DNA of 64,000 nt, from positions 3,100,001 to 3,164,000 of the forward strand of contig NZ_NEVS01000004.1 of NCBI RefSeq assembly GCF_002261215.1, written 5' to 3'. How positions within the stretch are numbered: the stretch's first letter is position 1; the number at the start of each line of letters is the position of its first letter. A program made the translations under genes and the position numbers. This document shows, in pieces, positions 1,353 through 24,794 of the stretch. The DNA comes from Bordetella genomosp. 11. GTDB taxonomy: Bacteria; Pseudomonadota; Gammaproteobacteria; Burkholderiales; Burkholderiaceae_B. Under the pieces are notes generated by a model. It did not search any database, had not been told where the DNA came from, and saw only the letters and a program-made list of their open reading frames with translations.

Positions 1353-4300
1353 CTAGAACCGCCATGCGAGATTCACGCTGCCTGCATTCTGCCGGTTGCC
1401 GCCGCCGAGCTGGCCGTTGTAGGCCACGCCCACGGTCGTCGATTTCGTCAGCCGCATGTCGATGCCCAGCTCCATCACCGCGGCATCCTGCGCGATGGGG
1501 GCGCCGGCCACCGTGAACGGCACGCTGTCGCCGAAGGCCATGGTGGTGTCGGGATCCAGGTCGCCGAAGGCATGGCGCCAACCGGCCATGGCATGCACGC
1601 GGCCCGGCATTCCCGCTGACTCGAAACGAAGCTCGCCGCGCAGGCCCAACGTGGTGGTGGTGACCGCGCTGCGCTGGCTGTCGCCATCCAGAGCGGCCAC
1701 GCCGCCGGATTCCGAAAACCCGCGCACGCGCAGGTCGCTGTAGTTAACGCCGGCAAAAGGCTGCACTGCCATGCGATCGCCCACGGGCAAGCGGTAGCCC
1801 AGTTCCGTGAACGCTTGCGCGGTGCCGGCGTGATAGCTGGCCTTCAGCGTATCGGCCAGTCCCGCGGCGGACGTATCGCGGCGCGTGTCGATATCGTGCC
1901 AGGTATAGGCCACGCCCGCGGTCCATTCGATGTGGCCCGGCCCGGCCTGGAAGGCCTTGCCGCCATAGAGCGTGGCGCTGTAGCTGTCCACGTCCGCGGT
2001 GGAAGCGCGATCGTGCAGCGAGGCGTGGCTGCCGGTGTAGCCCAGCGCCCCGCCGAGGCGCCAGCCCGCGCCCAACGCCCGATCGCCGCCCACGAACAGG
2101 CCGCCATCCGATTGCCGCACGCGCCCCGCGTCGCCATTGCCGTCCAGCGTGCGCCAGCTGCCGAAAAGCTGGGCCCAGACAGGCTGCGCGGCCGACCGCG
2201 GCAGGACCGCCGCGTCCGCGGCCCCAGGTCCCGCTTGGGCGGTCGGCTCGCCGGCCGTCTGGCCCGCGTACAGGTTCGCGCGCAAGCGCGCCATCGGCAA
2301 CGTGGCCACCGTGTCGCTTACGCCCTGGAGCACGCCGATGGTGCTGGCGTGGACCTCGCCCGACAAGGCGTTGAATGCCGCCGGCGGCGCGCCGACGGGC
2401 AGGTTGAGCACCCGCGAATACACGGCATTGTCCTGCGGCAGGCTTTGCACGGCGTTGGCGGTGGCGCGCTGGTTGCCCGTCTCCGCGGCGTCGGCAAAAC
2501 GGATGGGCCGGGTGCCGCCATCGCCGCCGCCATCGCCATCGCCGCCGTTGCTCCCGCTACCGCCATCGCCGCCGCCATTGTCCGAGCCGCCGTTACCCGG
2601 CACCTGCTTCAACTGCATCCGCAAGGTGACATCGTTCGCGCCATAGCTCAGTTTGGGGTCGAGGAAGGCGTAATTGCTGGCCACGCTATTGAAAGCCCCA
2701 TGCAGGCCTCCCGCCGCCGTCACGATGGTGTAGTCGCGCGCCAGACTGAAATTACCGTCCGGCCCCACGTGCACCACCGAACCCGCCAGCGTCGCCGTGC
2801 CGCCCACCACGATGCGGTCGCTGGCCGACGACGTGGAATCCGCCTCCACCTGGTAGACCGCACCGGGGACCATGGCGAAGTCCCCGGTGACATGCAGCGT
2901 GCCGATGGAGTTGCCGGGCGCCACGATGCCGCCGGCGCCGATCACCGCGCCGCCGACCGTGCCCTGCCCGCCCAGCGTGGCGCCATTGCCTACGGTCACG
3001 ATGCCTGGCAGGATGGCGCCCGCGTGGGTGGCGTCGCCCACCACCAGCTTGCCGGCCTGCAGCGCGAAGGCGCCCGTATACGTACTGGCGCCGTTCAGCG
3101 TCAAGGTGCCGGCGCCGGTTTTGGCAAGCGCGCCGTTACCGGAAAGCGCGCCTTGCAGCGCCAGCGGCTGTGGCGTATCCAGGGTGCCGCCGCCAGCGCC
3201 CACCGCGATGGAACGCGCCGTATCGATGGCAGCGGTATTGCGCAGCGTGCCGCCATTGAACGTCAAGGCACCGGAAACATCGCCCAGCGCGGCGTCCGCG
3301 CCGATTACTAGCGTGCCGCCGCTCAGGGTCCACGGCGTGACGCCGGCGGTCGAGCCGGTCAGCGTCCACGTGCTGGCACCCGTTTTCTCGTAGGCATTGA
3401 AGCCCTGATACTGGACCGCGGCGCCCACCGCGCCGATCTGGCCGACATTGAATGTGGTGCTGGCGTCTGTCGTGTCGCCGCCCAGCGCCAGGACATCGCC
3501 GCCCAGCGTGGCCCCGCTGGTGCTGACGACGTTGCCCAGGATGGTGGATCCCGCCTGCAACGTCAGGCGATTGGCCCCACCGCTCAGTTCCACGGCATTG
3601 GCGCGGTTCCCGTTGAAGCTGTCCATGGCGCCCACGATCGTGCCGCTATTGGCTACCGTGACGCCGCCCTGGACGATCACGCCGGCCCCGCCGGCGCCCA
3701 GGGTGACGCCGGCCGGACTGCCCGCGGCGCCGCCGAAGATAATTCCGGAGTTCCGCAGGGATCCGCCGGTGTTGATGAAACGCACGCCGGCCCCGCCGTT
3801 GCCAGGCTGCCCGCTGGGTCCGAATGCGTCGCCTCCCCTGCCACCGATGATCTGGCCCGCCGCATCATTGGCGATCGCCGTTCCATTGGCGACGATGGCA
3901 TCGCCGCCCGTCCCGGCCGCGGCCCCGGTGGCTCCGCCGCCACCGCGGAGGGAAGCGGCATTGTTCACTGCCCCGCGGTTGGCGAGCACGGCGGCACCAC
4001 CCAGGCCGCCCGCCCCGCTCGTGGCGTCGCCTCCCAGGCCGCCCTGTACGGTGCCGGCATTGTTGAACAGCGTGCCGCCATCGACCAGGAACACGCCCGC
4101 ACCGCCTCCGCCGCCGCCCGAGTCCGGACCCAGGCCGGCCGCGCCGCCGGTGCCGCCGACGATCACGGAGCCGTCGTGTTGGATGGTCCCGCCGGACACA
4201 AGCACCACACCGGCGCCGCCACCGCCGCCGCCGCCGGGACCGCCGATCGCCGTATTTCCGGCGCCGCCTGTGCCGCCCGCGACGGAGGTTCCGCCGGTGG

Positions 4301-5975: not shown

Positions 5976-7019
5976 TCATCCGTTCAGGGGAAATACCGCC
6001 TGGGAGGCCAGCGTCAGGCCGACGCGCTGGCCGCGTTCATACGAAGTCCGGCTGGAGACTTCCACCAGGACCGGACCGGCGCCGGATATACCTGCCAGCG
6101 ACAGCCGCGTGCGGTCGCCCAGGAACTGCACCGCATCGACGGTGCCGGCCAGCGCCGCGCCGTCGGCCGCGCCCACGATGGCGTCTTCCGGCCGGAAGAA
6201 CAGTTCGCGTGTCGCCGTATCGCCGCCCGGATAGTCCAGCGCGCCGCCGTCCATGTGAAAGGCGCCATCGCGCCAGTCTCCGCTAAGCCTGTTCAGCGTA
6301 CCGACGAAGTTCGCCACGTGCCGGCTGCACGGGTGGTAATAGATGTCGCGCGGCGTGCCGATCTGTTCGATGCGGCCGGCGCTCATCACCACGATGCGGT
6401 CGCCCAGGGCCATGGCTTCGTCTTGGTCATGCGTGACATAGACCGTCGTGACGCCCAGGTCGCGCAGCAGCTTATCCATGTCGGCGCGTACCGTCTCGCG
6501 CAGTTTGGCGTCCAGCGCGGTAAGCGGCTCGTCCAGCAGCAGCACTCGCGGCTCCGGGGCCAGGGCACGGGCCAGCGCCACGCGCTGTTTCTGTCCGCCG
6601 GACAGCTGGGCGATCGGCCGGTCGGCCAGGGCCGTCAGCTGGACCATGTCCAGCAATTCGTCGACGCGGCGCTTTATCTGCGCGGCAGGCAGCCGCCGCA
6701 ATTTCAAGCCATAGGCGACGTTGCCGCGCACGGTGAAGTTGGGAAACAGCGCATAGTTCTGGAAGACCATGCCGACGCGCCGGTCCTCGATGGCGAGCCG
6801 CGTGACGTCGTCGTCGCCGAACAGCACGCGGCCGCCGGCATCGGGACGTTCCAGTCCGGCGATCAAGCGCAGCGTCGTCGTCTTGCCGCACCCCGACGGC
6901 CCCAGCAGCACCAGGGTTTCGCCCGCGCCGATCTGCAGATCCAGCGGCTGCAGGACGATGTTTCCGTTGAAGGTCTTGCTGCACCGCTCCAGGCGGATGG
7001 GTATGGATGTGAGTTTCAT
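5976..7019 (-). CDS. ABC transporter ATP-binding protein (spermidine/iron/phosphonate type)
   Basis: This 347-residue ATPase powers the importer encoded by the neighbouring permeases. Walker A is GPSGCGKTT, the signature is LSGGQKQRVALARAL and Walker B is VLLLDEPLTALD, followed by a switch His in YVTHDQDEA. A C-terminal TOBE-like region of about 100 residues (FFRPEDAIVG onward) is present, as in PotA, FbpC and PhnT. The gene sits between permease 1 and the phosphodiesterase with very short gaps, consistent with one transcript. Substrate specificity lies in the binding protein, not here. Confidence 0.92.
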   Translation of the reverse strand: MKLTSIPIRLERCSKTFNGNIVLQPLDLQIGAGETLVLLGPSGCGKTTTLRLIAGLERPDAGGRVLFGDDDVTRLAIEDRRVGMVFQNYALFPNFTVRGNVAYGLKLRRLPAAQIKRRVDELLDMVQLTALADRPIAQLSGGQKQRVALARALAPEPRVLLLDEPLTALDAKLRETVRADMDKLLRDLGVTTVYVTHDQDEAMALGDRIVVMSAGRIEQIGTPRDIYYHPCSRHVANFVGTLNRLSGDWRDGAFHMDGGALDYPGGDTATRELFFRPEDAIVGAADGAALAGTVDAVQFLGDRTRLSLAGISGAGPVLVEVSSRTSYERGQRVGLTLASQAVFPLNG

Positions 7020-7043
7020 GGATGGAAATTCAGGGAGACGGCC

Positions 7044-7835
7044 CTAGCGCTTGGCGGTGCGCGGCCTACCGCGTCCGGTGACCTGCAGCAGCACCAGCAG
7101 CGGCACGATGATCAGGAAGAACACGGCGGTATAGGCGCTGCCGACCTCCAGGCGCAGCGATGCATAGGCATCGGCAAGCCCTACCGGCAGGGTCTTGGTT
7201 TCCGGGGTATGCAGCATCCAGGTCAGATTGAACTCGCCCAGCGAGAGGGTCACGACAATCAACGCCCCCGCCACGATTTCCGACCGGATGTTCGGCAGCA
7301 CCACGGTAAAGAAGCGTCGCAGGAAGCGCGCGCCCAGGCTGGCCGCGCCCTCCTCCAGCACCTTGATGCGCCCGTCCGCGCAGGCGGCAGATACGGCGCG
7401 CACCATGAACGGCAAGGTGAAGACGACATGGCCGGCCACGATAAACGCCAAGCTCTCGCGGAAGGCACGCACGCCGCCATAGACGCTGATCAGCGCCAGC
7501 GCGCTGGCCAGGCCGGGCAGCGCGATGGGCAGCGTCAGGAGTTCCTCGATCCAGCGGGCGTAGCGGCTGCGCCAGCGGGCCAGGATGTATCCGGCCGGCA
7601 CGCCCAGCACGGCGACGATGGCCAACGTGGCCAGGGCGACGTACAGGGAATTGAGAATGGCGCCCTGGTAATCGTGCCAGACCTGGATCACCCACTTCAG
7701 CGTCAACCCGGAGGAAATGCCGCGAAAGTAGTTCTGCGTCAGCCCGGCCATGATGGACATGCCGACCGGAACCAGCAGGAATGCGCACATCAGCAGCGTC
7801 AGCGCCAGCTGCAGGATGAAAAGAACACGCTTCAT
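7044..7835 (-). CDS. ABC transporter permease (second of pair)
   Basis: This inner-membrane subunit has 263 residues and about six hydrophobic segments. The binding-protein-dependent transport signature around EEGAASLGARFLRRF fits the EAA loop. The start is placed at ATG 7835 (MKRVLFILQ) because AAGGAG lies six bases upstream; an in-frame start 15 bases earlier lacks such a site. It resembles the PotC/PhnV class of permeases. It follows the other permease by 28 bases and precedes the ATPase by 24. Confidence 0.9.
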   Translation of the reverse strand: MKRVLFILQLALTLLMCAFLLVPVGMSIMAGLTQNYFRGISSGLTLKWVIQVWHDYQGAILNSLYVALATLAIVAVLGVPAGYILARWRSRYARWIEELLTLPIALPGLASALALISVYGGVRAFRESLAFIVAGHVVFTLPFMVRAVSAACADGRIKVLEEGAASLGARFLRRFFTVVLPNIRSEIVAGALIVVTLSLGEFNLTWMLHTPETKTLPVGLADAYASLRLEVGSAYTAVFFLIIVPLLVLLQVTGRGRPRTAKR

Positions 7836-7863
7836 CGATTGCTCCTTCACGGGGCCGCCGCCC

Positions 7864-8688
7864 CTAGCCCGCGGCGCCCACGGAAGGGCCGGAGAAATTA
7901 CGCGCCAGCATCAGCACGCCCCAGGTGACTACGCCGAGCACCACTGACAGCGCGGCGGCGGTAGCAACGTTCGCGTTCAGGGTGAACTCGGTATAGATGG
8001 TCATCGGCAGCACATCGATGTCGGTGGCCAGCGTGAAGGCCGTGCCGAAGGCGCCCACCGACGTGGCAAAGCACATCGCCCCCGACGCGATGAGCGCGGG
8101 CGCCAGCGCGGGCAGCGTAATGTCGCGCATCAGCGCCCACGAACGTGCGCCCAGCGACGCGGCTGCTTCGTACAGAGAGGCATCCAGCGATTCGGCCGCC
8201 GCCATCACGGCCAGGATCACGCGCGGGATCGAGAAATACAGGTAGCCAAGGAACAGTCCCGCCAGGGAATAGGCGAACACGGCCTTGAAGCCGAACAGCC
8301 TGAGCGTCAGGTCGCCGATCAGGCCCTGGCGACCCGCCAGCATGATGACCATGAAACCCACCACCACGCCGGGAAAGGCCAGCGGCAAGGTCAGCATCGA
8401 GATCAGCATGGACTTGCCGCGGAATTCATGCCGCGTCAGGAACAGGCCGGCCAGCACCGAAAGCACGAGCGTTGCCAGGGTCACCAGCAGCGACAGCAGC
8501 ACCGTCTGCCACAGGCTGTCCAGGTACCGAGGATTGGTCAGGACGGCCCGGTACGCCTGGATCGCGTCGCCGTTGCCGGAAATGCGCACCAGCACGGCGA
8601 TCGGCATCAGCCAGAACGCCAGGAACACCACCAGGGCGGGCAGCAGCATGGCCACGCGCCAACCGCGCGGCAGGGTCAAGTCTTGCAT
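7864..8688 (-). CDS. ABC transporter permease (first of pair)
   Basis: This 274-residue inner-membrane permease is of the PotB/PhnU type. Hydrophobic segments are evident from residue 12 onward (MLLPALVVFLAFWL) and in four or five later stretches. The EAA-type loop reads YEAAASLGARSWALM, which contacts the ATPase. It pairs with the permease at 7044-7835 to form a heterodimeric channel, as is usual for families with one binding protein, two permeases and one ATPase. Confidence 0.9.
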   Translation of the reverse strand: MQDLTLPRGWRVAMLLPALVVFLAFWLMPIAVLVRISGNGDAIQAYRAVLTNPRYLDSLWQTVLLSLLVTLATLVLSVLAGLFLTRHEFRGKSMLISMLTLPLAFPGVVVGFMVIMLAGRQGLIGDLTLRLFGFKAVFAYSLAGLFLGYLYFSIPRVILAVMAAAESLDASLYEAAASLGARSWALMRDITLPALAPALIASGAMCFATSVGAFGTAFTLATDIDVLPMTIYTEFTLNANVATAAALSVVLGVVTWGVLMLARNFSGPSVGAAG

Positions 8689-8716
8689 GGTTGTCTCTTG
8701 GCCGGCGGCGGCGCGA

Positions 8717-9748
8717 TCAGCGAACGTTCTTCAGGTAGTCCTGGCCGAAGGAGGCCTGCCTGGCGGCAAGCTGCTCCAGGTTCACGGGTCGCACCCGCTC
8801 GTAGTCGCTCGCTGGCAGAAATTTCTTGGCCAGTTCCGGGTCCATCGCCCCCTGCCGCACCGGCCGCAGGTAGGCCTGTGCCCAATGCGCCTGTCCTTTG
8901 TCGGATAGCGTGTAGTCCAGCACTTTCTTCGCGTCGGCCGCGTGCGGGGCGCCCTTGACCAGCGCCATCACGTACGGCAACGCCACCGTCCCTTCGGCCG
9001 GAATGACGAACTGGACGTTGGCGTGGTCCTTGTAAATGGCGCGGTAGGCGTTGAAATCGAAGTCCAGCAGGATGGGGATTTCGCCGGACAGCACGCGCGC
9101 ATACGAGGTCTGCTTGGGCACGATGGGGTCGTTCTGCTTCAGCTTCTTGAAGTACTCCAGGGCCGGGCCGAAATTATCGATCGTGCCGCCCAGGGCCTGG
9201 TTGACCGCCACGGCCGACGCATAGCCGACGAAGGCGCTGCTGGGATCCAGGTAGCCCACCATGCCGCGATATTCGGGCTTGAGCAGGTCCGCCCACGACT
9301 TGGGCACCGGCTTGCCCTCCAGCGCATCGCGATTGACGAAAAATCCGATGGTGCCCGAATGAATGGAGAACCACAGGCCGTCGGGGTCCTTCAAGTCGGT
9401 GGGGATCTGGTCCCAGTGCGCCGGCTTGTACGGCGCGAGCAAGCCTTTCTTAGCCGCCTCGATGGCCGACGTAATGCCCAGGTAAACGACATCGGCCACC
9501 GGCGAGTTGCGTTCGGCGATCATTTGCGCCACCGCCTGCCCGGAATTCTTGTTATCCAGGGGCACGCGGATGCCCAGATCGCTTTCAATGGCCTTGACCT
9601 GGCCTGCCCAGTCCGCCCATTCGGGCGGACAGTTGTAGCAGATCACCGTCGGATCCGCCTGCGCGGGCGTGGCGGCCAGCGTGGCCAGCAAGGCCAGGAC
9701 GCCCGCTCCCGCGGACAACGCCTGCCTGATTCTTGTCTTGAAGCTCAT
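8717..9748 (-). CDS. ABC transporter periplasmic substrate-binding protein
   Basis: This 343-residue exported binding protein has a Sec signal peptide (positive start, hydrophobic core, ending TPAQA before DPTVICY). The body has the two-lobe pattern of family 1 solute-binding proteins of the iron/spermidine/phosphonate group, for example SGTIGFFVNRDAL and WADLLKPEYRGMVGY. AAGGAGAG sits eight bases before the ATG. It follows the LacI gene by 22 bases and is therefore the first structural gene of the operon. The ligand is unknown. The terminal phosphodiesterase makes an organophosphate possible, and a 2-aminoethylphosphonate-like ligand is an alternative. Confidence 0.88.
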   Translation of the reverse strand: MSFKTRIRQALSAGAGVLALLATLAATPAQADPTVICYNCPPEWADWAGQVKAIESDLGIRVPLDNKNSGQAVAQMIAERNSPVADVVYLGITSAIEAAKKGLLAPYKPAHWDQIPTDLKDPDGLWFSIHSGTIGFFVNRDALEGKPVPKSWADLLKPEYRGMVGYLDPSSAFVGYASAVAVNQALGGTIDNFGPALEYFKKLKQNDPIVPKQTSYARVLSGEIPILLDFDFNAYRAIYKDHANVQFVIPAEGTVALPYVMALVKGAPHAADAKKVLDYTLSDKGQAHWAQAYLRPVRQGAMDPELAKKFLPASDYERVRPVNLEQLAARQASFGQDYLKNVR

Positions 9749-12564: not shown

Positions 12565-12933
12565 ATGGCATTGATCCTGGTCGTGGATGACGAGATCCTG
12601 CTCGCGGAGATGCTGGCCGTCATGCTGCGGGACGCGGGCCACGTCGCCCTTACGGCGCCGCATGGGCGCGCGGCACTGGAGCTCATGCAAGCGCAGCGAC
12701 CGGATCTGGTCATCACGGACTTCATGATGCCCGTGATGACGGGGCTCGAACTGGCCCAGGCCCTACGCGCCGACGGAAACACGCGGGACTTGCCGATCAT
12801 TCTTTGTACCGGCGGCCAGGGCCTGTTGGCTCGCCAAAGCCCTCACTTGTTCGATCTGGTCGTCGACAAGCCATACGATTACGGGGCACTGCTTTCCCAG
12901 GCCGAGCGCCTGGTGCGAAAGACCCGTCGATAA
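12565..12933 (+). CDS. Stand-alone response-regulator receiver domain
   Basis: This 122-residue single-domain receiver has the acidic pair D8-D9, phospho-acceptor D52 (ITDFMMP), switch residue T82 (ILCTGG) and conserved K102 (DKPY). There is no output domain. The ATG at 12565 has AGGAG about nine bases upstream. A longer in-frame start at 12502 would overlap the KaiC-like gene by 29 bases and adds no conserved sequence. Position and spacing indicate co-transcription with the KaiC-like ATPase, so the two probably act together. No histidine kinase is adjacent. Confidence 0.9.
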   Translation: MALILVVDDEILLAEMLAVMLRDAGHVALTAPHGRAALELMQAQRPDLVITDFMMPVMTGLELAQALRADGNTRDLPIILCTGGQGLLARQSPHLFDLVVDKPYDYGALLSQAERLVRKTRR

Positions 12934-19023: not shown

Positions 19024-20484
19024 TCAGGCGATGGGAATGTGGAAGCGGAACGTCGTCCCGCGCACGCTACCGATCAGTTGGATGGTACCGCCTTGCAGCT
19101 GCAGCAGCCGCTGCACGACGATCAGGCCCAGTCCGCCGCTTTCCCCGCCGGGCCGACGCAGGGCGCAGGCATGGACGAACAGATTGTCGCGCAGGGCCGC
19201 CGGAATTCCCGGCCCATCGTCGGCCACCTCCACGGCGACCCTGCCGCCGGCAACGCTCAACTTGAGCCGGACATGCGTGCCTTCCGGCGTATGCCGCATG
19301 GCATTGTCCAGCAAATTGGTCAGCACCCGTTCGATCATGCCCAGATCCGCGCGGATCAGGGGCAAGGACTGGGCGATATCCACATCGATGCGCTGGCGGC
19401 GCGCGTGCGCCGCCAGCTCGCACTTCTGCACGACGTCCTGCACCAGGTCCGGCAATGCAAACACCGCCAGATCGGGATGGACCAGGCCAGACTCCAGGCG
19501 CGCCAGACCGAAAAGTTCCTGCGCCAGGTGGCCCACCTTGCGGCTCTGGTCCAGGGCGATATCCAGATAGCGCCTGCGTTGCGGCGCGTCCAGGACTGCG
19601 TCCTTCAGGCGCAGCGTCTCCAGATAACCGTGCAGCGATGTCAGCGGGGTGCGCAGGTCATGCGAGAGGTTCGCGATCAGGTCGCGCCGCTGCTGGTCCT
19701 GCCGCGACAACTCGCCCCACTGTTCGACGATGCGTCGACCGAGCTGGCCGAACGCATCTCGCAATACGGCGATCTCGTCGACGGGAGTCCGCCCGGCCCC
19801 CGGCTCGCCCAATGCAGCGGCATGCTCGCCATTGGCGTCGAAGCCGCGGACGACGTCGGTCAGCGCCCGCAGGGGGCGCGTGATCGAGCGGAAGGCGATC
19901 AGCCCCATGGCGAGCGCCAGCAATGCGATGAAGCCCAGGATCCAGAGCGAGAGCCTCAGCATGCGGTCGCCCGCCCGCGCATCGGCCACCGCGTCGTGAT
20001 TCTCCCCCTGGAGAACGACATACACATATCCCGCGTTCGCGCCGTCGACCTGTACGCGCGCCGCGCTGAAGACTTTCCTGCCGTAAAGGCTGCGCGGGTC
20101 GTCGCCCAGGATGGGCAGCCGTTCGCCCGCAAGATAGTGGGCGACGGGCGCCAGGTCGACACGTCCGCGCTTCAAATGCCCGGCCGGCGCGGCATCGCCG
20201 ACGATACGCCCGCTGTTGTCCAGCAGATAGAGCTCCACCGACGGATTGACCGCCATGAGCTGATCGAAAAGCGTGCGCGCCGCCTGGGGACGCCAGCCGT
20301 TGCTGTCCATGAGCTGGGCCGTCCCGGCAATATGCCCGGCCAGGCCGAAGGAAACACGTTGCACGACTTCCTGCTCGTGACGCGCGCTGGTGCCGATCTG
20401 CAACCAGGCGGATACGGCACTGCAAGCCAGCAACGACACGGCGAAGACCAGCGACAGCCTCTGTGTAAGGGTGAGGCGTTTCAT
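19024..20484 (-). CDS. HAMP-containing sensor histidine kinase
   Basis: This 486-residue membrane sensor has a TM helix at about residues 9-29, a periplasmic domain of about 150 residues, a second TM helix at 180-200 and a HAMP linker (RSITRPLRALTDVV). The dimerisation/phosphoacceptor helix holds H275 (ANLSHDLRTPLTS). The ATPase domain has an N box (NLLDNAMRHT), G1 (VADDGPGIP) and G2 (GLGLIVVQ). The start at ATG 20484 (MKRLTLTQ) gives a proper N-terminal TM; upstream in-frame residues to 20679 look non-coding. No response regulator gene lies on either side, which is unusual. It is divergent from the cytochrome b/molybdopterin operon. Confidence 0.9.
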   Translation of the reverse strand: MKRLTLTQRLSLVFAVSLLACSAVSAWLQIGTSARHEQEVVQRVSFGLAGHIAGTAQLMDSNGWRPQAARTLFDQLMAVNPSVELYLLDNSGRIVGDAAPAGHLKRGRVDLAPVAHYLAGERLPILGDDPRSLYGRKVFSAARVQVDGANAGYVYVVLQGENHDAVADARAGDRMLRLSLWILGFIALLALAMGLIAFRSITRPLRALTDVVRGFDANGEHAAALGEPGAGRTPVDEIAVLRDAFGQLGRRIVEQWGELSRQDQQRRDLIANLSHDLRTPLTSLHGYLETLRLKDAVLDAPQRRRYLDIALDQSRKVGHLAQELFGLARLESGLVHPDLAVFALPDLVQDVVQKCELAAHARRQRIDVDIAQSLPLIRADLGMIERVLTNLLDNAMRHTPEGTHVRLKLSVAGGRVAVEVADDGPGIPAALRDNLFVHACALRRPGGESGGLGLIVVQRLLQLQGGTIQLIGSVRGTTFRFHIPIA

Positions 20485-20645: not shown

Positions 20646-21272
20646 ATGTCAAACCCAGCGAATCCCGCGGATCCGCCACGGACGGACAGACGAAGCGTGC
20701 AGCCGGGCTGGCTGCGCCTGACCCATTGGATCAACGTGCTGGCGGTCCTTGCGATGGTAATGAGCGGATGGCGCGTCTATAACGCCTCGCCGCTGTTCGA
20801 TTTCCGGTTTCCCAATGGCTTGACGCTGGGCGGCTGGCTGGGCGGCGCCTTGCAATGGCACTTCGCCGCCATGTGGCTGCTGGTGGGCAACGGACTGGTC
20901 TACCTGGCGGTGAACCTGGCCAGCGGCCGCCTGGCACGGCGCTTTTTCCCGCTTACCCCGCGCGGCATCGTGCATGACGCCGTCGCCGCGCTGCGGGGCA
21001 AGCTCTCGCACGCGGACCTCCGCCAATACAACCATGTCCAGAAGGCGGCGTATCTGTTCGTCATCGCCGACCTGGCGGTGCTCGTGCTGTCCGGGCTGTC
21101 CATCTGGAAGCCGGTGCAGTTCAGCGTCCTGGTTGCGCTGATGGGCGGGTACGACACCGGTCGCGTGGTGCACTTCAGCGCGATGGCGCTGCTGCTGGCC
21201 TTCGTCATCGTGCACGTCGTCATGGTGGCCCTGGTGCCGCGCACGCTGCGCACCATGATCATCGGACGCTAG
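20646..21272 (+). CDS. Cytochrome b/b6-domain membrane protein (b561 type)
   Basis: This inner-membrane diheme cytochrome of 208 residues has four to five hydrophobic helices. Candidate heme-ligand His lie in RLTHWINV, LQWHFAAMW, YNHVQKAAYL and VVHFSAMALLL with FVIVHVVM. AGGAG lies five bases before ATG 20646. The gene ends ten bases before the molybdopterin oxidoreductase, so the two form an operon. The cytochrome would pass quinol electrons to that enzyme, as MsrQ does for MsrP in E. coli. The family is cytochrome b561-like rather than MsrQ itself. Confidence 0.88.
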   Translation: MSNPANPADPPRTDRRSVQPGWLRLTHWINVLAVLAMVMSGWRVYNASPLFDFRFPNGLTLGGWLGGALQWHFAAMWLLVGNGLVYLAVNLASGRLARRFFPLTPRGIVHDAVAALRGKLSHADLRQYNHVQKAAYLFVIADLAVLVLSGLSIWKPVQFSVLVALMGGYDTGRVVHFSAMALLLAFVIVHVVMVALVPRTLRTMIIGR

Positions 21273-21282
21273 GAAGATCCCC

Positions 21283-22071
21283 ATGATATTCAAACGTGGC
21301 AACAACAAGGCGATCGACGGCGAACTCGCACTGAAGGAAGCGCGCGGCATCCTGGCGCGGCGGGTAGACGAGCCGGCACGGCGTGCGTTCCTGACGCGGA
21401 CACTGTCACTGGGCGGACTGGCCATGCTTACGGGCTGCTCGCTGGACGACAACGAAAGTGTCGGCAAGGCCTTGACGGCTGTATCGCGATGGAACGACCG
21501 CGTGCAGGACGCGATATTCCGGCCCGCATCGATGGCGCAGACGTATCCGGAATCCATGATCACCCGGCCGTTCCCCTTCAATGCCTTCTACGACGTGGAC
21601 CAGGCGCCTACCGTCGCCGAAGAAACCTACCGGCTGGAAGTGACCGGCATGGTGGCCGACAAGCGGTCCTGGAAACTGGAGGAGCTGCGCCAGATGGCGC
21701 AGTCGGACCAGATCACGCGGCATATCTGCGTGGAAGGCTGGAGCGCCATCGGCCGCTGGGGCGGCGTGAAGTTTTCCGACTTCCTGCATCGCGTCGGCGC
21801 GGACACGACGGCGAAGTACGTCGGATTCAAGTGCGCCGACGATTACTACACCAGTATCGATATGCCTACCGCGCTGCACCCGCAGACCATCCTGGCGCTG
21901 ACTTACGACGGCAAGACGCTGCCCCGCGAGTACGGCTTTCCGATGAAGCTGCGCGTGCCGACCAAGCTTGGCTACAAGAACCCCAAGCATATCCAGGCGA
22001 TCTTCGTCACCAACTCGTACCCGGGCGGCTACTGGGAAGACCAGGGCTACAACTGGTTCGGTGGCAGCTGA
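21283..22071 (+). CDS. Molybdopterin-dependent oxidoreductase, sulfite oxidase/MsrP fold, Tat-exported
   Basis: This 262-residue periplasmic enzyme binds molybdopterin. Twin arginines at 33-34 (ARRAFLTR) precede a hydrophobic stretch and LTGC with Cys52, so it may be a Tat-exported lipoprotein. C149 in RHICVEGWSAIGRW is the expected molybdenum ligand. Other family blocks are RLEVTGMV, YTSIDMPTAL and KLGYKNPKHIQAIFV. Fold relatives include the catalytic subunit MsrP (YedY), which reduces periplasmic methionine sulfoxide, and sulfite oxidases. The next gene encodes a Met-rich exported peptide, which favours a methionine-sulfoxide role. The substrate is inferred, not shown. Confidence 0.87.
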   Translation: MIFKRGNNKAIDGELALKEARGILARRVDEPARRAFLTRTLSLGGLAMLTGCSLDDNESVGKALTAVSRWNDRVQDAIFRPASMAQTYPESMITRPFPFNAFYDVDQAPTVAEETYRLEVTGMVADKRSWKLEELRQMAQSDQITRHICVEGWSAIGRWGGVKFSDFLHRVGADTTAKYVGFKCADDYYTSIDMPTALHPQTILALTYDGKTLPREYGFPMKLRVPTKLGYKNPKHIQAIFVTNSYPGGYWEDQGYNWFGGS

Positions 22072-22138
22072 TTTTCTCAACCGCGCGGGTTTTTCCGCGC
22101 ATTCTCGACCCTATCGATCCACCTGAAGGAGTACCGTT

Positions 22139-22438
22139 ATGAAGAAGATTTCCGCTGCCGTCCTGTCGGTTTGCATGGCCTTTGCCGCCGGCTCCGCCTT
22201 CGCCGCCGATGCGATGAAACACGACGCGATGGGCAAGAGCGATGCCATGAGCAAAGGCGACGCCATGGGCAAGGGCGACGCCATGAGCAAGGGCGACGCC
22301 ATGGGCAAAAGCGATGCCATGGGCAAGCATGACGCCATGGGCAAGGGCGACGCCATGGGCAAGCATGACGCCATGGGCAAGGGCGATGCCATGGGCAAGC
22401 ACGACGCCATGGGCAAAGGCGACGCGATGAAGAAGTAA
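22139..22438 (+). CDS. MXKDX pentapeptide-repeat exported protein (Met-rich)
   Basis: This 99-residue protein has a Sec signal peptide (MKKISAAVL...SAFA) and then consists of little but the pentamer Asp-Ala-Met-Gly/Ser/Lys-Lys followed by Gly, Ser or His. I count 13 Asp-Ala-Met units. About one residue in six of the mature chain is Met, with extra Lys and four His. This matches the penta_MxKDx family. GAAGGAG precedes the ATG by about eight bases. A terminator directly follows the gene, closing the cytochrome b/oxidoreductase operon. A periplasmic sacrificial Met pool or a metal-binding role is inferred. Confidence 0.9.
   Translation: MKKISAAVLSVCMAFAAGSAFAADAMKHDAMGKSDAMSKGDAMGKGDAMSKGDAMGKSDAMGKHDAMGKGDAMGKHDAMGKGDAMGKHDAMGKGDAMKK
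22208..22435 (+). repeat. 15-bp in-frame tandem repeats within the MXKDX gene
   Basis: There are thirteen units of 15 bases, each containing GAYGCSATG. The last six units alternate as a 30-base higher-order repeat (His-Asp-Ala-Met-Gly-Lys then Gly-Asp-Ala-Met-Gly-Lys). The near-identical nucleotide copies should make repeat number prone to slippage and variable between strains. Confidence 0.9.
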
Positions 22439-22452
22439 GGGTCCCTACCGGC

Positions 22453-22479
22453 AAAAAGGCGGCGAATGCCGCCTTTTTT
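22453..22479 (+). terminator. Rho-independent terminator after MXKDX gene
   Basis: The stem GGCGGC/GCCGCC has loop GAAT, is flanked by five A on the left and is followed by six T. It lies 15 bases past the MXKDX stop codon. Confidence 0.9.
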
Positions 22480-22569: not shown

Positions 22570-22618
22570 TTGCACCTTTTGCACACTGACGTTACTATTA
22601 ATGCGAATCGTTATCATT
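22570..22618 (+). promoter_or_regulatory. Promoter with overlapping Fur box for TonB receptor
   Basis: TTGCAC (22570-22575), a 17-base spacer and TACTAT (22593-22598) form a sigma-70 promoter. The sequence AATGCGAATCGTTATCATT at 22600-22618 matches the Fur consensus closely and covers the expected transcription start. Iron-bound Fur would block this promoter. The predicted start near 22605 leaves about 45 leader bases before the ATG at 22650. Confidence 0.8.
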
Positions 22619-22649
22619 TTTGTATCTAATCGGCTCGCATCCTGGCCCC

Positions 22650-24794
22650 ATGGCATCCTCCCCCTCCCGGCTTTTCCTCGTCGGCCTGGTCGCGCTCGCG
22701 CCGGCAAACACACTGGCCCAAAACGTACCCGCTACTCCATCCCCATCGAACCCTGCCCAGGCGGCGCCTGCCGCGCATGCCGGAACGGCCCAACTGCCGA
22801 CCGTGCATGTCGTGAGCGACGGCGAGGCCGACGCCCCGTTCAATCCCGTCACGCCGCCCCAGGTCAACAAGTCTTCCGTGCCGCTGTCGGAAACCCCGAT
22901 GTCGATCACGGTGGTGCCGCGGTCGGTGCTGGACAGCGAGCAGGCGCAAACGCTGGCGGATGCCTTGCACAATGTACCGGGCGTGGTGGCCAACCAATTC
23001 GGCCGTCGAGGCTGGGACGACCTGATCATTCGTGGCCAGGTCGCCTCCGATTCGCTGTTCCTGGACGGATTGCGCACATCGGCCACCAGTCGCGTGGCCG
23101 AACAGTTGTACGGCCTGGAGCAGGTCGAGGTGCTGAAAGGGCCGGCCTCCCTGCTTTACGGACTGGTCCTGCCGGGCGGCCTGGTCAATATGGTCAGCAA
23201 GCGGCCGCAACCGGAGGCCTTCGCCAATGCGGACGTGACCGTCGGCAGCCACGACATGTACCAGGGCGCGATCGACATGGGTACGCCGCTTTCGGACAAC
23301 GGTAAAGCCGCGTTCCGCCTGAATGCCCTGACGGAGAACTCGCACGATGCAACCGATTACGTGTGGTTCAAGAACCGATGGATCGCGCCGTCCCTGTCGC
23401 TGGACCTCGGGTCGCGCACCGACTTCACGATACTGACCAGCTACCAGGAACGCCGCTACGTGCGCCAGCAGGGCCTGCCGCTGGCCGGGTCCGTGCTGCC
23501 CAACCCCAACGGCAGCATCCCGCGCGACCGCTTCATCGGCGAGCCGGGCCAGGACCCATACCGTGCCTTCGAAACCCGCGTGGGATACGCGCTGACCCAC
23601 CGCTTCGACAACGGCTGGACCGTGAATCAGAACCTTCGGTGGCAGGAGTATTCGGTAACCGGCCAGGTCGTGACCAACGGCACGCTGGCGCGGGATAACC
23701 GCACGCTGAGCCGCACCGCCACGGATCAAAGCTGGAGCGGCGACACGATCACCCTGGACACCAATGCCCAGAGGACGTTCGCCACCGCCTTCGGCAAGCA
23801 TGAAGTCACATTCGGCACCGATTACCTGCGCACCCGCGAAACCGTGCAGAATTTCAATTGCAGGGTCGGCACGCTGGATGTCTACAACCCGACATACGGC
23901 AGCCCCATTGTCTGCCCCGCCACCCCGCGCACCGCCAGCGACAGCACGATACGGTCGCTGGGCTTCTATGTGCGCGACCAGGTACAACTGGGCGAACGCT
24001 GGCGGGTGCTGGCGGGCCTGCGCCGCGATGACGCATCCAGTTATGCCACCAATACGCTGGACGGCACCCGCACCGACAATCCGTCGAATGCCACGACAGG
24101 TTCGGCGGCGATCATGTACGAGCTGTGGCCCGGCGTACGGCCCTACGTTAGCTATGCCACCTCGTTCTTTCCGAACAGCGGTACGGACGTCGACGGCAAT
24201 GCCTTCGATCCGGAAACCGGTCGCCAATGGGAAGCCGGCGTCAAGGTGGACCTGGACGACGGCGATACGAACCTGACCTTCGCCGTTTTCGACCTGCGCC
24301 GGCGCAACGTGCTGCAGGCCGACCCCGTCAACGATGGCTTCAGCATCGCCGTGGGCGAACAACGCTCCCGCGGCGCCGAATTCGGCATCGTGTCGGACCT
24401 GGGCAACGGCTTGAGCCTGTTGGGCGGCTATGCCTACACGGCGGCCGTGATCACCGATGACGGCGGCCAGTCACCGTCGACGCAGGGCGATCCACTGGAC
24501 AACGTACCGCGCCACAGCTTTACCATGACCGCCCGCTACCGCCTGCATGGCGCCCTGCTGGGGTGGGAACTGAATGGCGGCGTGCGCGGCGAAAGCAGCC
24601 GCCACGCCTACGGCTACGAAATCCCGGGTTATACGGTGGCCGATGCCGGCATCGCCTATAACGCGGACCACTGGCGCGCCGCGCTGACCGTCAGGAACCT
24701 GTTCGACAAGCAGTACTTCGCCGGCGGGCTGCGCAACGCGGTCGCGCTGGGGGACGACCGTACGGTATTGCTGACACTGGGATACCGGTACTGA
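22650..24794 (+). CDS. TonB-dependent siderophore receptor
   Basis: This outer-membrane receptor of 714 residues has a signal peptide ending NTLAQ, and a plug domain with SETPMSITVVPRSVLDSEQ, LHNVPGV, LIIRGQ, VEVLKGPASLLYG and PGGLVNMVSKRP. The beta-barrel ends with LFDKQYFAGG and the C-terminal LTLGYRY. These are hallmarks of TIGR01783-type siderophore receptors (FpvA/FhuA-like). ATG 22650 fits the predicted transcription start; a TTG at 22620 in frame would lie inside the promoter-proximal leader. The Fur box indicates expression under iron limitation. No siderophore biosynthesis or TonB gene is adjacent, so it probably takes up a foreign siderophore. Confidence 0.92.
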   Translation: MASSPSRLFLVGLVALAPANTLAQNVPATPSPSNPAQAAPAAHAGTAQLPTVHVVSDGEADAPFNPVTPPQVNKSSVPLSETPMSITVVPRSVLDSEQAQTLADALHNVPGVVANQFGRRGWDDLIIRGQVASDSLFLDGLRTSATSRVAEQLYGLEQVEVLKGPASLLYGLVLPGGLVNMVSKRPQPEAFANADVTVGSHDMYQGAIDMGTPLSDNGKAAFRLNALTENSHDATDYVWFKNRWIAPSLSLDLGSRTDFTILTSYQERRYVRQQGLPLAGSVLPNPNGSIPRDRFIGEPGQDPYRAFETRVGYALTHRFDNGWTVNQNLRWQEYSVTGQVVTNGTLARDNRTLSRTATDQSWSGDTITLDTNAQRTFATAFGKHEVTFGTDYLRTRETVQNFNCRVGTLDVYNPTYGSPIVCPATPRTASDSTIRSLGFYVRDQVQLGERWRVLAGLRRDDASSYATNTLDGTRTDNPSNATTGSAAIMYELWPGVRPYVSYATSFFPNSGTDVDGNAFDPETGRQWEAGVKVDLDDGDTNLTFAVFDLRRRNVLQADPVNDGFSIAVGEQRSRGAEFGIVSDLGNGLSLLGGYAYTAAVITDDGGQSPSTQGDPLDNVPRHSFTMTARYRLHGALLGWELNGGVRGESSRHAYGYEIPGYTVADAGIAYNADHWRAALTVRNLFDKQYFAGGLRNAVALGDDRTVLLTLGYRY

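Follow-up and report, generated by a model that had tools for sequence, protein, structure and literature searches.

What might a small exported protein, crowded with methionine, be doing directly behind the genes for a membrane cytochrome and a molybdenum enzyme? This question is raised by a stretch of 64,000 nucleotides from Bordetella genomosp. 11 (RefSeq assembly GCF_002261215.1, contig NZ_NEVS01000004.1, positions 3,100,001 to 3,164,000 of the forward strand; the window, in what follows), in which a first-pass annotation had recognized three genes of one orientation encoding a b-type cytochrome, an enzyme of the MsrP fold and an exported Met-rich protein, a unit that coordinates and Pfam matches confirm (Table 1). 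We consider it probable that this unit is an envelope methionine-sulfoxide reductase with a dedicated sacrificial Met-rich client, similar to the systems of Azospira suillum and Brucella. An oxidizable Met pool served by a quinol-fed reductase, which the annotation had proposed, is the best-supported reading of the locus, although the details given for the repeat type do not hold. What can be seen directly is the gene order, the export signals as read by eye, the candidate metal and heme ligands as placed by alignment, the repeats and the conserved linkage of the pair to the repeat gene and to genes for MsrA and MsrB.

The repeat protein carries a Sec-type signal peptide ending in AFA (export signals of the unit's proteins were read from the sequence, without a signal predictor) and its mature part of 77 residues contains 13 Met and no Cys. 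Its gene was the only open reading frame (ORF) in the 64 kb to pass our rule for Met-rich exported proteins, against a background of one other ORF in 658,664 bases. The annotation had described an exported peptide with Met in every pentamer and had labelled it MXKDX; export and Met-richness were upheld, but the Met spacing is six. The repeat unit is the hexapeptide DAM-G/S-K-x, for which Tandem Repeats Finder reported 18 bp in 11.6 copies with 81 % matches, and among the 13 DAM starts the first two are five residues apart and the others six. The MXKDX label was likewise dropped, as the window protein gave no match to TIGR02953, the MXKDX model, at an E value of 0.1, nor did a hexamer protein of Pandoraea. 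Three pentamer proteins encoded at this position in relatives, by contrast, scored 79, 126 and 72 bits (cut-off 41). This shows that TIGR02953 misses a hexapeptide branch. The proteins that the model recognizes do share a signal peptide, repeats of Met, Lys and Asp, and genomic position with the window protein, and differ from it in being built of pentapeptides.

A nearly exact tandem array of this kind (81 % matches) could also be a functionless slippage artefact of the 18-bp unit. We rejected such neutral expansion as having next to no likelihood: D, A and M are fixed across the units and K is present in 12 of 13, while the Asp (GAC/GAT), Ala (GCC/GCG) and Lys (AAG/AAA) codons differ synonymously between units, and this variation at fixed residues argues for constraint at the protein level. 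Furthermore, the signal peptide and the linkage are maintained across genera, and Met density is similar at another unit length.

The last points come from a scan with the oxidoreductase, in which the best 80 of at least 587 confirmed stretches (at least 595 scanned matches) were retained as near-relative loci. The cytochrome gene lies directly 5' of the oxidoreductase gene in 79 of these, the 80th (L066) ending early, and a Met-rich gene follows 31–144 bp 3' of the oxidoreductase gene in 78; none was found behind it in L011 and L052. In their mature parts, the nine hexamer proteins (the window protein included) average 16.3 % Met and the 70 pentamer proteins 18.8 %; the content stays at 13–23 % despite the change in unit length from five to six. 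An oxidoreductase tree of 90 rows placed all nine hexamer carriers (the window and eight Pandoraea) in one clade with support of 100/93; one change is therefore sufficient to explain the hexamer, and a convergent origin in the window and Pandoraea was rejected. BLAST revealed an MsrA gene on the same strand and no more than 2.5 kb behind the repeat gene in 20 of the 80 loci, and an MsrB gene in 11 (the queries were two Pfam-confirmed proteins, and 74 loci extended for 2 kb or more behind the repeat gene). By eye, several of these neighbouring MsrA and MsrB N-termini carry twin-arginine translocation (Tat) or Sec signals, with some ORF starts placed too far upstream. One locus, L001 of Bordetella genomosp. 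2, has the unit in tandem duplicate (1441–4171 and 6278–9008; 99.96 % over at least 2731 bp), unless this is an assembly repeat.

The two partner proteins were characterized by family models and by alignment. Pfam assigns the cytochrome to PF01292 (the cytochrome b561/formate dehydrogenase gamma type) and in formate dehydrogenase (1kqf) its match is the cytochrome subunit; it has H27, H72, H122, H176 and H190 present in 80 of 80 aligned sequences. There was no MsrQ-named match that would place it in the MsrQ flavocytochrome family, and direct comparison with Escherichia coli MsrQ gave 20 bits over 35 residues, which is no real similarity. The oxidoreductase has the YedY fold and begins with R33R34 followed by a lipobox, LTGC (read by eye), the Cys of which is invariant; it is probably a Tat-exported lipoprotein. 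Its C149 aligns with the Cys in RMRCVEAWS of E. coli MsrP, which we take to be the molybdenum ligand, and the motif PFNAxY (PFNAFY in the window), invariant in 25 of 25 sequences, aligns with GYNNFY of MsrP. The score against the MsrP equivalog NF003767 (86.5 bits) is below the curated cut-off of 207, and those against the sulfite dehydrogenase models SorA (58.4/600), SoxC (41.2/420) and SorT (15.5/570) are likewise all below cut-off. Sulfite oxidases carry an extra domain, for which 262 aa is too short. A sulfite dehydrogenase is thus disfavoured by model scores, by length and by the PFNAFY/GYNNFY alignment; the fold comparison ended in a tie, and the predicted structure was weak (mean predicted local distance difference test score 69.8, exceeding 80 in blocks 111–140 and 161–220) and served for fold only.

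In the cycle that we propose, the cytochrome, a presumed quinol-oxidizing electron donor, would draw electrons from the quinol pool. The molybdenum enzyme, Tat-exported and probably anchored by a lipid, would receive them and, on the outer side of the inner membrane, reduce methionine sulfoxide in proteins. The repeat protein, presumably disordered and rich in Met, Lys and Asp, would be the dedicated client of this enzyme, the first target of oxidants of the hypochlorite type and others before being recycled, and reactive chlorine may induce the unit.

To what extent the peptide and the pair belong together was quantified in an even draw of 398 genomes of the phylum Pseudomonadota. TIGR02953 matched above cut-off in 35 genomes (19 more with weaker matches were left out of the counts), and 34 of the 35 have a PF00174 gene. 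The cytochrome/oxidoreductase pair is likewise present in 34 of the 35 MXKDX genomes, compared to 42 of the 363 others (Fisher P=7e-27, uncorrected for kinship). The nearest PF00174 gene lies upstream of the MXKDX gene in 12 genomes and downstream in 10 (1.1–1.9 kb), with none within 5 kb in 13; in 22 of the 35 it is within 2 kb. The annotation had named MXKDX genes standing mostly without the oxidoreductase as evidence against its proposal, and the opposite was found. Taken together, the adjacency in 78 of 80 near relatives, the two opposite gene orders and the near-complete co-occurrence argue for a functional tie between peptide and pair.

Several observations nevertheless weigh against a strict form of the dedicated-client reading. 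The oxidoreductase profile A1 matched 76 of the 398 genomes, and its scores fell into two clearly separated groups, 33 nearer matches with ≥347 bits and 53 farther ones with ≤191. All 86 loci (about 7.7 kb each) contain a cytochrome akin to that of the window or of locus L111, yet a Met-rich exported ORF occurs within 2.5 kb in only 14 of the 33 nearer and nine of the 53 farther loci, leaving 63 of the 86 pairs without one. A fasciclin protein lies near the pair in 11 of the 19 nearer loci that lack a Met-rich gene, and the kinase beside the window unit is without its usual response regulator. As the Met-rich gene is absent near the pair in most loci, we view the pair as a cassette of general use to which the Met-rich peptide is optional. 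These 63 loci, 11 of them with fasciclin nearby, together with 12 of the 35 MXKDX genomes in which over 5 kb separates the pair and the peptide gene, would suit an envelope reductase acting generally, on many proteins or on small S- or N-oxides, with the Met-rich peptide serving independently in stress and sharing no more than its regulation with the pair. We regard this as unlikely, given that adjacency is near-obligate in the closest clade, that both opposite gene orders keep the peptide close and that the two co-occur in all but one MXKDX genome.

The exported fasciclin proteins (loci L149–L158 and L147; genomes G294, G389, G164, G040, G116, G205, G340, G370, G222, G292 and G379) are encoded 0.86–0.95 kb from the pair in ten loci and 2.5 kb in one, PF02469 having been tested for L147. 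The first ten genomes (G294 to G292) also hold an unlinked MXKDX gene, and the ten short-gap genomes make up 10 of the 13 whose MXKDX gene has no PF00174 gene nearby. Among the papers listed by a literature search, none was seen to describe a fasciclin protein alongside the cytochrome/oxidoreductase pair; in one of them, on a Rhodobacter fasciclin protein, cytochrome b561 appears only inside a reference title (PMC7561615).

The one MXKDX genome with no PF00174 match, G369 (genome completeness not stated), carries on the same strand as its MXKDX gene the neighbours MsrB (PF01641), a DsbD/thioredoxin-like protein and MsrA (PF01625; locus L115, 2–5235), as if one reductase type were replacing another. 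The same locus has a weakly FecR-like gene, and adjoining genes resemble by eye a pair of extracytoplasmic function (ECF) sigma factor and NrsF. A tentative and rather doubtful extension is that the PF01292 cytochrome and the Tat-lipoprotein molybdenum enzyme form a widespread cassette with interchangeable dedicated clients (a Met-rich peptide in one branch, an exported fasciclin-domain protein in another), regulators that can be swapped (response regulator and histidine kinase, or ECF and NrsF) and swappable thiol reductases, in which exported MsrA/MsrB with a DsbD-like donor would be the back-up. The Met-rich client, whether pentamer or hexamer, would then be selected for its density of Met rather than its sequence or spacing.

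Two further groups of loci were noted. At least ten (L081, L083, L084, L087, L088, L089, L090, L092, L095 and L099) have a distinct MXKDX form with conserved neighbours, named by eye as a TRAP-type solute-binding-like protein and a small Ala/Glu/Lys-rich protein. In L116, L117 and L119, MXKDX or ECF-like genes adjoin one for a protein that presumably resembles DUF1223 and shows a motif of the TSQGC or TSEGCSSCPPAD kind (in L119 by its start only).

The window kinase is encoded divergently from the three-gene unit; a homologue is present in 27 of the 80 near-relative loci, all of which have a response regulator (in relatives it lies between kinase and cytochrome), and two further loci, both ending nearby, have the regulator without the kinase. 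At 1e-5, no response regulator, ECF, NrsF, MsrA or MsrB was found in the 64 kb (for ECF and NrsF by tblastn with one query each), the only hit being a 34 % receiver-domain match at 12574–12834. The window kinase is either an orphan or has lost its response regulator gene. An ECF sigma factor with NrsF is present in four of the 80 loci (L069, L073, L074 and L078), from which we conclude that SigF/NrsF-type control is exchangeable within the enzyme clade. Across 28 kinases (the window and 27 loci), M59 and M77 of the sensor region are conserved at 96 % and 100 %, and C21 of the first membrane segment at 89 %. The window kinase is 22 % identical overall to HprS of E. coli, and its M77 aligns within the HprS stretch FNRMMDV; this likeness and the conserved Met are a lead to regulation, not proof. 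The kinase scored 120 bits against the heavy-metal sensor model TIGR01386 (cut-off 292.6) and 141 against PhoR (cut-off 334), both below cut-off.

The sub-cut-off match to TIGR01386, albeit exceeded by that to PhoR, also bears on copper. Met-rich repeats, partly with His or Cys, might bind periplasmic Cu(I)/Ag(I), the reductase keeping their Met reduced and oxidant protection being secondary. E. coli MsrPQ is reported to be copper-induced through CusSR and to repair CusF, a Met-dependent copper chaperone (PMC9302797). The window repeats contain four scattered His, and Cys occurs in some Met-rich proteins of the wider draw (for example L130, L131, L132, L140, L170 and L171). However, neither residue is conserved in the 70 near-clade pentamer proteins (45 have no His and 17 have one; 69 have no Cys), inspection of the 28 most frequent neighbour clusters by eye revealed no copper gene, and the recurrent partners are MsrA and MsrB. 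A copper buffer is consequently judged improbable.

Gaps of 10 bp and 67 bp separate the cytochrome from the oxidoreductase gene and the latter from the repeat gene. The terminator that the annotation placed after the unit was borne out by folding: the plus-strand hairpin (22453–22478), in which an A tract is the pairing partner of the U tract, has −19.4 kcal/mol compared to a shuffle mean of −12.8 (z −2.4; 3 of 200 shuffles equally stable). The terminator scan reported this palindrome 3' of the unit on the minus strand only, so that the plus-strand hairpin rests on the fold calculation. A promoter scan detected no promoter. Beyond the unit, window positions 22597–22623 are AT-rich and by eye Fur-box-like, and precede the TonB-dependent receptor gene.

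Table 1. Features at the three-gene unit and its flanks (positions are those of the window)
Feature	Position	Strand	Basis
Sensor histidine kinase, 486 aa from ATG	19024–20484	−	Pfam HisKA/HATPase_c
b-type cytochrome, PF01292, 208 aa	20646–21272	+	Pfam, 79 bits
PF00174 molybdopterin oxidoreductase, 262 aa	21283–22071	+	Pfam, 110 bits
Exported Met-rich hexapeptide-repeat protein, 99 aa	22139–22438	+	ORF, repeat analysis, synteny
Intrinsic terminator at the end of the unit	22453–22479	+	Hairpin fold
TonB-dependent siderophore receptor, 3' of the unit	~22620–24794

The idea of a sacrificial Met pool and its reductase is already published for A. suillum and Brucella. In A. suillum PS, the yedYZ (YedY1)-mrpX genes (Melnyk 2015) are described as a periplasmic methionine cycle against hypochlorite (PMC4623255, PMC5748585). 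As for the window, reductase genes and a Met-rich peptide gene go together in this description; control there is by SigF/NrsF, whereas in the window a sensor kinase adjoins the unit and the 64 kb gave no ECF/NrsF match. The likeness rests on published descriptions of the system. For two other perchlorate-reduction islands, one of these papers reports homologues of msrA and msrB with predicted export (PMC4623255), which are close to the MsrA/MsrB neighbours seen in our relatives and in G369. Brucella melitensis bcrXQP is co-transcribed, induced by hypochlorous acid (HOCl) and encodes a Met-rich MXKDX protein with MsrQ and MsrP homologues; the triple deletion lowered survival after 1.5 h in 2 mM HOCl, and by 4.5 h reduced survival was seen for the sigma-factor mutant alone (PMC8315932). 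Those authors propose the MXKDX peptide as the reductase substrate and describe it as homologous to the peptide of A. suillum (PMC8315932), so the annotation's view of MXKDX as a repeat family different from MrpX is contradicted. Brucella bcrXQP, with BcrS/AbcS, matches the window in having three genes for a Met-rich protein and a reductase pair, and differs from its cytochrome-enzyme-peptide order and hexapeptides by placing the peptide gene first (X-Q-P), by ECF sigma control and by the MXKDX type. Common to this type and the window are a small exported Met-rich protein gene beside reductase genes and, in linkage, a PF00174 enzyme of the Tat type and a cytochrome b in the membrane.

The resemblance to E. 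coli MsrPQ (msrP b1971, msrQ b1972) lies in the molybdenum enzyme of the same fold, the aligned Cys and the membrane heme partner; in addition, msrPQ is under two-component control (HprSR) and the window unit adjoins a sensor kinase. Unlike MsrP, the window enzyme has 262 aa, a lipobox, a score below the MsrP model cut-off and a PF01292 partner unlike MsrQ, and no Met-rich peptide gene is annotated alongside msrPQ. A link to Pseudomonas aeruginosa froABCD, considered from a review, was dropped when a follow-up search returned that review alone. In a search of the MXKDX and MrpX/YedY1 literature, with most subscription papers outside it, no title on a hexapeptide form was found. We likewise did not find described the hexapeptide branch, frequent MsrA/MsrB coupling outside perchlorate islands, or the fasciclin alternative.

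In summary, our survey links Met-rich repeat proteins to a defined reductase pair across the Pseudomonadota. The apparent natural replacement, in which MsrA and MsrB accompany the repeat gene and no PF00174 enzyme was found, opens the sacrificial-methionine idea to tests on purified proteins.
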